A stretch of DNA of 40,177 nucleotides from Flavobacteriales bacterium. Lineage in GTDB: Bacteria > Bacteroidota > Bacteroidia > NS11-12g > UBA955. A model generated the notes under the pieces. That model made no database searches and was not told the DNA's origin. It saw nothing but the letters and a program-made list of their open reading frames with translations. Location: contig JAHEMG010000009.1 of assembly GCA_024643755.1 (NCBI GenBank), forward strand, positions 1 to 40,177, written 5' to 3'. Below, in pieces: positions 24,992 to 28,151 of this stretch; within the stretch, counting starts at the first letter, position 1; each line of letters opens with the position of its first letter. A program made the position numbers and the translations under genes.

Positions 24992-25990
24992 TTAAGATTG
25001 CGATGGAATGGGCCTCGGCGGGTATTTGGCTGCCGCGTTTGCAATGGCGCGAATATGATCTGGTGTAGTGCCACAGCAACCGCCCACAATATTCACCCAA
25101 CCTTCTTTGCACCAATCCTCCAACACCGCCGCCATACCTTCTGGGGTGTCGTCATACTCCCCAAATTCGTTGGGCAAACCCGCATTCGGATAACAGCTAA
25201 TCGGCACCCAAGCCACGCGGGCCATTTCTTCGATGAACGGACGCATTTGTGGTGCGCCCAAGGCACAATTCAGTCCCACACTCATCAAATTTCCGTGCGA
25301 TATTGAAATCCAAAAAGCTTCTGCAGTCTGTCCGCTTAACGTCCTACCGCTATTGTCTGTTATCGTACCGCTCACCATCACAGGAATATCCAATCCGCGT
25401 TCTTCTTTGATGGTATTAATCGCGAAAAGCGCCGCCTTACAATTGAGGGTATCGAAAACGGTTTCCACCAGCAGCAAATGCACCCCAGCATCCAACAAAG
25501 CATTGGTTTGTTCGGTATAGCAGGCCACTAGTTCGTCAAACGACACCGCACGATAGCCAGGATTATTCACATCGGGCGATAAACTAGCGGTTTTGTTCGT
25601 AGGTCCGATAGAACCTGCCACATACCTCGGTTTTGAGGGGTCCATGGCGGTGTATTCTTCCGCGGCGGCGAGCGCAAGCGCCGCCGCCGCGGAATTCAAT
25701 TCCTTCACCAAATCCACCATGTGGTAATCCAACATAGAAATGGCATTGGCATTAAACGTATTTGTTTCAATGATATCGGCACCCGCCGCCAAAAATTGCT
25801 TGTGAATATCCGAAATTATTTGTGGCTGAGTCAACACCAACAAATCGTTGTTCCCTTGCAATGCATGGCCAAAATCAGCAAATCTCTCTCCACGGTAATC
25901 CGCCTCAGACAGTTTGTGTTTTTGTATCATCGTGCCCATGGCCCCATCGATGATTAGTATTCGCTCACGCAAATGGTCTTGTATGTTCAT
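24992..25990 (-). CDS. metH1: Homocysteine S-methyltransferase domain protein (stand-alone MetH part 1)
   Basis: A 332-residue protein equal to the N-terminal homocysteine-binding domain of cobalamin-dependent methionine synthase: [66 protein letters not shown] with the first zinc Cys, and [11 protein letters not shown] with the other two. The folate, B12 and activation domains are absent, as in the split metH1/metH2 arrangement known in Bacteroidota, so the partner gene should lie elsewhere. Its ATG overlaps the TGA of the upstream gene (ATGA), implying coupling. Residues 99-111 ([13 protein letters not shown]) are encoded by a GC-rich palindrome. Confidence 0.92.
25658..25694. repeat. Intragenic GC-rich inverted repeat B (in metH1)
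   Basis: Perfect 13-base arms TTCCGCGGCGGCG (25658-25670) and CGCCGCCGCGGAA (25682-25694) around an 11-base loop AGCGCAAGCGC. It lies inside metH1 codons 99-111. Compared from memory with MetH proteins, this region aligns without an insertion. Arms resemble elements C and D. Confidence 0.85.
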
Positions 25991-26886
25991 TTTGAAATTT
26001 CTTTTATGGTTTGATCCAATACCCGCGCCATCAAATCCAATGCGGTATGGGCTGTCATTCGATTCTGTTCGTCAATACACGCTTCCAACCGCACAGGCAG
26101 CTTGGTTTTGGCAATCAGCATCAGTGGCGACACTGGTCCTTCGCCTTTTTTCGTTGGATAACGAAACTGTACAAATGCCCGTTGCGCGTCGGCATTATTC
26201 AGCGTTGGAAAATCTATGGCCTGTGGCAATCCGTCCTCCACATTCCTCGCATAATACACCACCTCTGGCTCATCTTCGTACAACGCCTGCACATCAACAT
26301 GCTGCATCAGCGTATGCGTTTTCTCAGCAAACACCTGGTCAAATGCCTGCTCTGCGATGCGATAATCACTGGCTGAATCCTTTGGCTGAAAAACCACCAT
26401 CGCTTTGTATTTAAAGGCCACATAACCTTTGCCATTGGCAAATTCTGCATAAAAATACCGCCCCTTATCGATTCCACCTTTCAGCAGATTTCGCTTTTTC
26501 AGCGATTGCATGAATGACTTAAAACGCTCCTCCGACGTAATAGACAAAGCCAAAAAACGCCCCTCCGAAAGTCCGAAAGCCACCACATCCGAATACAAAG
26601 CCAAACCCGGTTCTCCGGCATCTTTCACTTTTGAAAAAATGGGCAGTTTCGAAACAGTTTCACGCAATGCAGTTACACCCGCAGGTGGCACCGTTGAAGC
26701 AGCAAAATCGCCCCGCAGCAACTTGGTTTGCACATGCAAAAACCATTCTGCCGTGGCAGGCACAACCAACACCAGCCTACTTCGGGCATTGAAATTATAC
26801 CACAAATAAATACCAACAGAAATGACGGTAAGGGCTGTAAGACCCATGATCGTAAAAGCGATTCTTCGAAATCCTTTGTCTACCAC
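25987..26886 (-). CDS. Single-pass membrane protein of unknown function
   Basis: A 299-residue protein I do not recognise. One N-terminal membrane helix ([24 protein letters not shown]) is followed by a soluble domain of about 260 residues with [21 protein letters not shown] near its start, reminiscent of periplasmic DUF3352-like proteins, but this is weak. The frame is open to 26982; the GTG at 26886 is chosen because it directly precedes the charged flank (VDKGFRR) of the helix, has TTCCTTTG five bases upstream, and avoids a Cys-rich N-terminus that overlaps a terminator. Its stop overlaps the metH1 start by four bases, so the two are co-translated. Confidence 0.7.
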
Positions 26887-26940: not shown

Positions 26941-26983
26941 ATAAAATAAATTTGGGTGTCTACCGCATCGGCAAACACCCAAA
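26941..26983 (-). terminator. Rho-independent terminator of the Cys-rich protein gene
   Basis: Arms TTTGGGTGT (26951-26959) and ACACCCAAA (26975-26983) with a 15-base loop. On the minus strand the hairpin is followed by TTTATTTTAT and lies 27 bases past the stop at 27011. Confidence 0.7.
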
Positions 26984-27010
26984 CCAAAGAGTTACTGATT
27001 AAAATAAACC

Positions 27011-27457
27011 TTACTTCTTGCAGCAAGGTTTGCCTTCTGCACCACCGGCACAAGCCTTTTTTACAGGCGCAGAACCTGGGGCTGCAATGGGAGCAGCTAC
27101 CGCTGAAGCTGGAGCAGCAGAAGCAGCAGCCTCTGTATGTCCGCCACACTTGTGCTCAGCAGAACCACCGCAAGCGGCCTTAGGCGCCATGGCAGGAGCG
27201 GCAACTGAAGCAGATGCTGCAGAACCTTCTTTCTTGCAACAAGCCTTTACCTCACCGTTGGCTGCACCGGCTTTGCTACATCCTGCAGCAGAACCTTCTT
27301 TTTTGCAACAAGCTTTGGTTGGCGCTACTGCATCAGCAGGAGCAACTTTCGCCACTTCAATGGCAGGTGTAGTATTGGCAGTTTCGGCCGCTGTTTGGGC
27401 CTGAGAAGCGATTGCAAATCCTGCAATCAACAATCCAAAAGCAATGATTTTTTTCAT
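27011..27457 (-). CDS. Exported Ala- and Cys-rich repeat protein of unknown function
   Basis: A 148-residue protein with a signal peptide (MKKIIAFGLLIAGFAIASQAQ) and a mature part dominated by alanine with ten cysteines at 50, 51, 60, 73, 74, 96, 104, 136, 145 and 146. The unit KACCKKEGSAA occurs twice (about 49-58 and 72-81) and the protein ends GKPCCKK. Histidines at 102 and 107 lie next to Cys104 (SAEHKCGGHTEA). Paired Cys with Lys in a small exported protein suggests metal binding or a disulfide-rich particle, but no family is recognised. It has its own TATATTTG promoter box and terminator, so it is transcribed alone. Confidence 0.78.
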   Translation of the reverse strand: MKKIIAFGLLIAGFAIASQAQTAAETANTTPAIEVAKVAPADAVAPTKACCKKEGSAAGCSKAGAANGEVKACCKKEGSAASASVAAPAMAPKAACGGSAEHKCGGHTEAAASAAPASAVAAPIAAPGSAPVKKACAGGAEGKPCCKK

Positions 27458-27475
27458 AATTTTTATCTATTTATA

Positions 27476-27483
27476 CAAATATA
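27476..27483 (-). promoter_or_regulatory. -7 box TATATTTG of the Cys-rich protein gene
   Basis: Perfect TAnnTTTG, 18 bases before the ATG at 27457, between it and the psd stop. Confidence 0.55.
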
Positions 27484-27500: not shown

Positions 27501-28151
27501 TTACCATTTCGCAATAACCGTCTCTCCGCCCACCGTTTTTTGGTTCAATTCTACCAAAATCTCAGCATCCAATGGCAAGTACAAGTCGATCCGAGACCCA
27601 AATTTAATAAAGCCATATTCATCGCCTTTTTTCAATTCATGTCCGGGCTTCACGTAACAAACGATTCTTCTGGCCAAGGCACCGGCGATCTGACGAAACA
27701 AAATTTGTTTACCATTTTCTTCCATCACCACTGTGGTGCGTTCGTTTTCTGTGCTACTTTTTGGATGCCATGCTACCAAATACTTTCCAGGAAAATACTT
27801 CTGGTACAACACTTTTCCAGTCACCGGCGCACGGTTTACGTGAACATTCACGGGCGACATAAAAATAGACACTTGCTTGCGCTGATCTTTGAAATATTCG
27901 CCTTCTTCTACGTTTTCAATCACCACAACTTTTCCGTCGGCCGGTGCGATGATCAAACCCTCCCCTTGCGGGGTATTGCGCGATGGATTGCGAAAAAATT
28001 GCACCACCATCATAAAGAAAACCAGCGACAATCCCATGAAAATCTGCAACACCAACCCATCGCCCAGCAACCATTGAACACCCACGTTCAACAGCACCAA
28101 CACCAAGGTGGTCACAAAAATGATGGTAAATCCTTCTCTGTGTAATCTCAT
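27501..28151 (-). CDS. psd: Phosphatidylserine decarboxylase, archaeal-type
   Basis: Psd makes phosphatidylethanolamine by decarboxylating phosphatidylserine and matures by self-cleavage to a pyruvoyl enzyme. The 216-residue length fits the short archaeal-type form found in Bacteroidota. Two N-terminal hydrophobic segments (8-30 and 33-52) precede FFRNPSRN, IIAPADGKVV, SIFMSPVNVHVNRAP and the self-cleavage site KFGSRIDLYLP with Ser186 as the pyruvoyl-forming residue. It starts one base after the gdhA stop, so it is co-transcribed with gdhA. Confidence 0.94.
   Translation of the reverse strand: MRLHREGFTIIFVTTLVLVLLNVGVQWLLGDGLVLQIFMGLSLVFFMMVVQFFRNPSRNTPQGEGLIIAPADGKVVVIENVEEGEYFKDQRKQVSIFMSPVNVHVNRAPVTGKVLYQKYFPGKYLVAWHPKSSTENERTTVVMEENGKQILFRQIAGALARRIVCYVKPGHELKKGDEYGFIKFGSRIDLYLPLDAEILVELNQKTVGGETVIAKW

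Follow-up and report, generated by a model that had tools for sequence, protein, structure and literature searches.

A small exported lysine- and cysteine-rich protein encoded downstream of psd in Bacteroidota: a candidate envelope polythiol whose KxCCK units recur in membrane pyrophosphatase tails

What might a small cysteine-rich protein that falls in no known family be doing for a Flavobacteriales bacterium? The question is raised by one open reading frame on the minus strand (27011-27457) of the window, by which we mean the whole stretch of 40,177 nucleotides that was analysed, taken from a draft genome of 2.36 Mb. The frame opens with ATG and encodes 148 amino acids, ten of them cysteines. 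The features which the initial annotation had pointed out are all there: two exact copies of KACCKKEGSAA (residues 48-58, positions 27284-27316, and residues 71-81, positions 27215-27247), an EHKCGGH segment holding a C-x-G-H motif (27137-27157) and a terminal PCCKK (residues 144-148, positions 27014-27028), all on the minus strand. Between the copies of the repeat there are three synonymous differences and no non-synonymous one, which means that the repeat is kept at the protein level. We aligned the protein with its 12 genus orthologues (48-91% identity), and PCC lies close to the C-terminus in all 12. Within the genus subclades the gene has a median dN/dS of 0.07 (0.04 for psd), and pN/pS is 0.04 within three columns of a cysteine and 0.17 elsewhere in the mature chain; the surroundings of the cysteines are the most tightly constrained part of the protein. 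The frame is thus a real and constrained gene and not a chance one. AlphaFold2 gives the protein a mean pLDDT of 45, with the signal helix as the sole predicted structure; the mature protein is predicted to be intrinsically disordered, with no folded core.

On the minus strand of the window the genes follow one another in the order gdh, psd, the cysteine-rich gene, the gene at 25987-26847 and a gene with an S-methyltransferase domain. The upstream neighbour psd (27501-28151, minus strand; phosphatidylserine decarboxylase, PF02666, 1.5e-48) served as our anchor: we call "slot" the position downstream of psd on the same strand, and "slot proteins" the small exported Lys/Cys proteins encoded there. 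The gene at 25987-26847 (minus strand), which has no Pfam match at E 0.001, adjoins the slot in many genomes of the family. A promoter and a terminator of its own had been attributed to the cysteine-rich gene, and both are borne out. A scan for sigma-70 promoters gave none on the minus strand, and the Bacteroidota box was tested instead: the sequence TATATTTG at 27476-27483 (minus strand) fits TAnnTTTG, the consensus of the Bacteroidota -7 box. In the last 60 nucleotides upstream of the start, TAnnTTTG is present for 54 of the 75 slot genes, where mononucleotide shuffles give 3.5, and for 38 of the 54 non-redundant ones. On the 3' side, an intrinsic terminator hairpin of 17 pairs lies at 26949-26985 (minus strand). 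Strong hairpins lie downstream of the gene in 11/11 genus loci folded (L007 is not among them), with stem sequences that differ between the two genus subclades.

The protein begins with a signal peptide, MKKIIAFGLLIAGFAIASQA (27398-27457, minus strand), which would be cleaved between A20 and Q21, two residues invariant across 19 orthologues. The junction has the form AxA followed by Q, as for Sec export and signal peptidase I. An AQ or SQ junction was seen in all of the 55 family proteins examined, and AQ in 61 of the 75 slot proteins. This is the AQ-type end of the signal peptide predicted by the Bacteroidetes Q-rule for the signal peptidase junction (excerpt of PMC5837995); by this rule the mature chain would begin at Gln21. 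The earlier claim that the protein is exported is therefore upheld. There is no cysteine in the first 49 residues, so that the protein lacks the lipobox cysteine of a lipoprotein. The periplasm is as likely a destination for the mature protein as the cell surface.

Homology searches led a short way only. Sequence search gave matches in 20 of 58 related genomes (our own included), all in the family of the window. A hidden Markov model of 19 orthologues matched 15 of 395 genomes of the phylum, again with our own included. In the 15 foreign loci that we read, the matched frame has 0-3 cysteines and no CC. This means that the foreign matches are matches to the signal peptide, or to the signal peptide and lysines, and this model shows no homology beyond the family. 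The 19 orthologues have no match in Pfam at E 0.1 and, in NCBIfam, only two unrelated weak matches, in one member each; a PDB sequence search found no match for the window protein. We judged the weak matches to be compositional (DPC1, 0.12; adhesin_LEA, 0.011, and a Phr family, 0.024, the last two in one member each). The protein had been said to match no known family, and we likewise obtained no convincing match in Pfam, NCBIfam or the PDB sequences. Among the matches listed by a literature search, none describes this protein or a cysteine-rich pyrophosphatase tail such as the one presented below.

We then looked at position instead of sequence. Among 60 genomes of the family, psd was seen in 57, and the slot was read in all of these. 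A slot gene is present in 56 of the 57: 55 were taken by an automatic filter, and L189, whose 219-residue protein misses the filter, was counted by eye as an evident homologue. The sole case without a slot gene after psd is L030. In L186 the slot gene comes 908 bases after psd, behind another frame, and in one genus (L032, L190, L191) an exported frame of 207 amino acids stands between psd and the cysteine gene (101-724 in L190 and L191, in the orientation of psd). The slot protein of L189 holds seven CQGHA units, while that of its sister L016 has 125 amino acids and one unit; the number of repeats changes within a genus. Together with the one to four CC pairs found per slot protein, this agrees with the earlier description of the protein as modular.

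Outside the family the slot gene is found in 3 of 12 sampled genomes of the sister family and, among the matches listed (52 loci), in 11 of 43 other families of the class. The named carriers are Chitinophaga qingshengii, C. ginsengisoli, a Saprospiraceae MAG, a Chitinophagales MAG and UBA8524; the UBA8524 locus L075 and L140 are apparently the same contig, so that the named-carrier and family counts overlap. The gene is absent from the Pedobacter, Hymenobacter, Algoriphagus, Flammeovirga, Pontibacter and Spirosoma loci that were read, and L160, with 214 bases only, is uninformative. As a control, we took 80 named psd loci (652,224 bases, both strands) and searched them for frames satisfying a strict exported Lys/Cys criterion, fixed after the first slot proteins were known. 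Sixteen frames satisfied it, 11 from the family of the window and 5 from others, and 16 of the 16 lie in the slot. Some matches of the looser filter fail this strict criterion (for example L057, L059, L079, L089, L094 and L115), and for genome G480 we used the named locus L045, which has the same match coordinates. The window protein itself has the features by which we define the psd-linked KxCCK family, namely a place downstream of psd on the same strand, a signal peptide and a Lys/Cys-rich chain with CC. We propose that slot proteins of different families are homologous, on the basis of their position and architecture and not of significant sequence matches. Positional orthology combined with residue grammar recovered a family which profile search no longer finds beyond a single taxonomic family. 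In a Saprospiraceae locus (L103, from 4836 on) the slot protein is made of 238 residues of CTKSKTA units with one CC, another repeat in the same place. Two public MAGs titled Chitinophaga pinensis (L045, L051) have psd loci which group with the family of the window, and hence these titles look wrong.

Does the protein then serve psd, as a partner in the synthesis of phosphatidylethanolamine? The gene stays beside psd in loci without gdh nearby (L082, L091, L100, L103), and the control around psd, with every one of the criterion frames in the slot, goes the same way. However, the slot gene has its own promoter and terminator, it was not seen after psd in 32 of the 43 sampled families (1-2 genomes read in each, one too short, among the matches listed), and the psd-gdh order is found also in distant Cytophagales without any known link. 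As this order is kept there, we consider that a place next to psd is better evidence of orthology than of function, and that a partnership with Psd is very improbable.

We now turn to the grammar, for which we kept 54 non-redundant proteins out of the 75 slot proteins and compared them with shuffles. The pair CC, of which our filter already demands one in each protein, occurs 118 times against 28 in shuffles, and CCK 98 times against 6. Lysine precedes CC by two residues in 80% of the pairs and directly follows it in 83%, which gives the unit KxCCK. CxGH, the motif of the EHKCGGH segment, is found in 11 of the 54 proteins, with 12 occurrences in all where shuffles give 0.3. Around cysteines, lysine is frequent (932 within three residues against 469) and hydrophobic residues are depleted (24 against 123). 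Neither CxC nor CxxC occurs in any of the 54 proteins, whereas plain shuffles lead one to expect 29 of each. When a stricter null model keeps the CC blocks intact, the expected number of CxxC is 13.8, and the lowest of 1000 shuffles still has 4; for CxC the expectation is 5.5 and the lowest shuffle has none, so that the exclusion of CxC in the free slot proteins is weak by this standard. The mature chains contain 8.2% cysteine, 19% lysine, 0.1% each of phenylalanine and tyrosine, and no tryptophan.

The same grammar was met in a second place. A search for the KxCCK pattern over 37 genomes of the family led us to the membrane pyrophosphatase HppA (the pattern matches of L257 are ordinary genes and were discarded). 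The domain PF03030 was found in 36 of the 37 genomes, and a Cys/Met-rich C-terminal tail in 34 of the 34 genes with a readable C-terminus (L258-L261, L263-L288 and L304-L307; in our own genome, L288, 457-825, plus strand). The tails of L262 and G459 are cut by contig ends and stand outside the 34. The tails have 90-176 residues, 10-26 cysteines and 6.5% methionine, and some are also rich in histidine. In an alignment of 31 of the 34 (L265, L277 and L283 were left aside), they have a conserved core of the KCDMSKCATMTKEQCAAMCDSMGC type, with five invariant cysteine columns. CCK is present in 32 of the 34 tails, and so is a CC within the last 20 residues; the two exceptions to the latter are L284, whose tail closes with HDEHGHDHDNHDHGHDHY in its stead, and L259, which has no histidine stretch in that place. 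KxCCK occurs 39 times in the tails against 1.5 in shuffles. CxC is seen 3 times against 67 in plain shuffles and 31 under the strict null model, and CxxC once against 66 and 46 respectively; all these exceptions come from two sister genomes, L277 and L283, which are included in that count. Searches of Pfam and NCBIfam with the 31 aligned tails gave nothing convincing, the weak matches being judged compositional (DpdA, 0.015; MHC_II_beta, 0.034; Bac_Flav_CT_J, 0.08; one member each), and the PDB sequences gave no match. AlphaFold2 predicts a short helical core, at a pLDDT of about 80-85, and an end of low confidence; compared with the PDB, this predicted fold has no match (best E 3.7). The initial annotation had noticed neither the positional family linked to psd, nor the lack of CxC and CxxC, nor the grammar common to the pyrophosphatase tail.

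The C-terminus of the pyrophosphatase presumably lies outside the cytoplasm. A C-terminal OmpA-like domain reported on another membrane pyrophosphatase fits such an orientation (excerpt of PMC11210485), while the excerpt of PMC5150537 does not state it. HppA of the family resembles these membrane pyrophosphatases with extra C-terminal domains in having a C-terminal extension, but its extension is Cys/Met-rich, carries KxCCK units and differs from the OmpA-like one in having no convincing Pfam or NCBIfam match. A third kind of protein is concerned in 3 of the 4 genomes searched in the genus (G000, G008, G013): an FG-GAP/UnbV_ASPIC protein of the exported type ends in CCKK (L289, 1-534, plus strand; L332; L338).

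One may ask whether KxCCK is a recognition or attachment signal, through which an envelope enzyme acylates, thioether-links, glycosylates or anchors proteins by their cysteines, the free and the tailed proteins sharing one machinery. Its consensus is tight, with fixed lysines, it recurs near the C-terminus of unrelated extracytoplasmic proteins (the HppA tails and the UnbV protein, in the proportions just given), and the exclusion of CxC and CxxC would suit an enzyme which must not meet chelating pairs. Yet the CC units are also spread along the chain and not confined to its end, and in many slot proteins the last 14 residues are free of CC; we regard this explanation as doubtful.

The reading that we prefer, at a probability of about one half, is that the gene encodes an extracytoplasmic disordered polythiol which would bind a soft metal and buffer it, or hand it over, at the envelope. 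The vicinal thiols with their adjacent lysines, the CxGH motif and the company of methionine and histidine in the HppA tail point to soft-metal binding outside the cytoplasm. The protein would be exported by Sec and cut by signal peptidase I, and the new N-terminal glutamine would probably become pyroglutamate. The metal, most likely Cu(I) in our view, possibly Zn, Cd or As(III), would be bound in the periplasm or further out by the free thiols of KxCCK, together with the single cysteines and CxGH, while the lysines would offset the negative charge of the metal-thiolate. Such an exported polythiol would buffer the metal or pass it on, and the HppA tail would place this chemistry at the inner membrane, on its outer side. 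The compartment of the mature chain, the reduced state of its thiols, metal binding, the metal concerned and the beneficiary are what we infer beyond the letters themselves. Two facts speak against a metal: there is no known metal gene among the neighbours that were read (psd, gdh, the S-methyltransferase domain gene and the gene at 25987-26847), and the classical ligands of metallothioneins and chaperones, CxC and CxxC, are missing.

Are the thiols free? DsbB was found in none of the 37 genomes of the family and VKOR in 2 of the 37, with models that did match in control genomes; most of these genomes thus lack both, although they encode exported cysteine-rich proteins. Hence, enzymatic disulfide formation by DsbB or VKOR is unlikely in most of them, and the thiols are probably free; oxidants other than the two searched could still act on them. 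For the same reason we dropped disulfide cross-linking as our first choice. Of the metal-binding or covalently cross-linked peptide which had been suggested earlier, the metal-binding part is retained and the part concerning disulfides has become less likely. A related explanation would make the protein a structural polycation, a disordered Lys/Cys chain which cross-links itself, or binds an acidic lipid or polymer at the envelope, through disulfides or metal bridges. It agrees with the net positive charge of 52 of the 54 non-redundant mature chains, with their lysine content, with the lack of a predicted folded core in the window protein and with the variable number of repeats. The near absence of DsbB and VKOR goes against it, as do the uneven spread of the lysines, set two before and right after CC, and the net acidic slot proteins of L016 and L158, so that we find it rather unlikely. 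The scarcity of these two oxidases, together with a high thiol content and no CxxC redox motif, would be compatible with a sacrificial periplasmic reservoir of thiols, consumed by oxidants or electrophiles and not specific for metals. Such a sink leaves unexplained the pairing of the cysteines, the fixed lysines, CxGH and the methionine and histidine of the HppA tail, and we hold it to be unlikely.

How does the proposed soft-metal polythiol compare with known systems? Metallothioneins (the bacterial SmtA and BmtA, the mammalian MT) are small and cysteine-rich, have lysine beside cysteine and are unfolded without ligand; CxC and CxxC are their signatures. The window protein is like them small and cysteine-rich, with lysine beside cysteine and few aromatic residues, and the mature slot chains in general are small, rich in cysteine and almost devoid of aromatics. 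Unlike them it is exported, it has no match to a family model in Pfam or NCBIfam, and no CxC or CxxC cluster occurs in the 54 proteins; because of this absence, it can be called metallothionein-like in its working only. With the metallochaperones of the ArsD type it has in common vicinal CC pairs as sites for soft ligands, but ArsD is cytosolic and folded, and the window protein has no match to that family. Csp1, an exported copper storage protein, is likewise extracytoplasmic and rich in thiols, but it is a four-helix bundle, whereas our chain has neither a predicted fold nor a PDB sequence match.

If the soft-metal reading is true, a lineage of Bacteroidota has an unannotated thiol system of the envelope with a sequence code of its own, hidden from homology search since it is position and grammar alone that are conserved; genes which now match no family would have a role in metal handling or thiol tagging, and thiol chemistry would be tied to an ion-pumping pyrophosphatase. 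In a tentative extension, which we think possible though not probable, KxCCK would be a portable extracytoplasmic thiol code of this lineage: the free protein would dock on, or load, the tailed HppA and the FG-GAP/UnbV protein through a shared metal or a modifying enzyme, and the exclusion of CxC and CxxC would keep the units from closing on themselves and force them to bridge between chains.

Finally, we considered whether CCKK could be a general C-terminal sorting tag. CCKK-TRR sites exist in 34 of the 37 genomes of the family, and we read 45 CCKK-stop sites among them. The only ones in frames of more than 100 codons belong to the window gene and its orthologue (L334, L333), to the UnbV proteins (L332, L338) and to one frame of 207 codons (L326). 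Since so few sites lie in long frames, CCKK is not a common tag, and the idea was dropped. In our own genome, 23 sites code for CCKK: the window gene accounts for 3 of them and the end of the UnbV protein for 1, and the other 19 fall in frames of 11-109 codons which do not look like genes. One can also notice, beside hppA in G024 (L255, 4843-5232, plus strand), a lipoprotein-like frame of 129 amino acids with 17 cysteines, in which CCK is mixed with CxxC.
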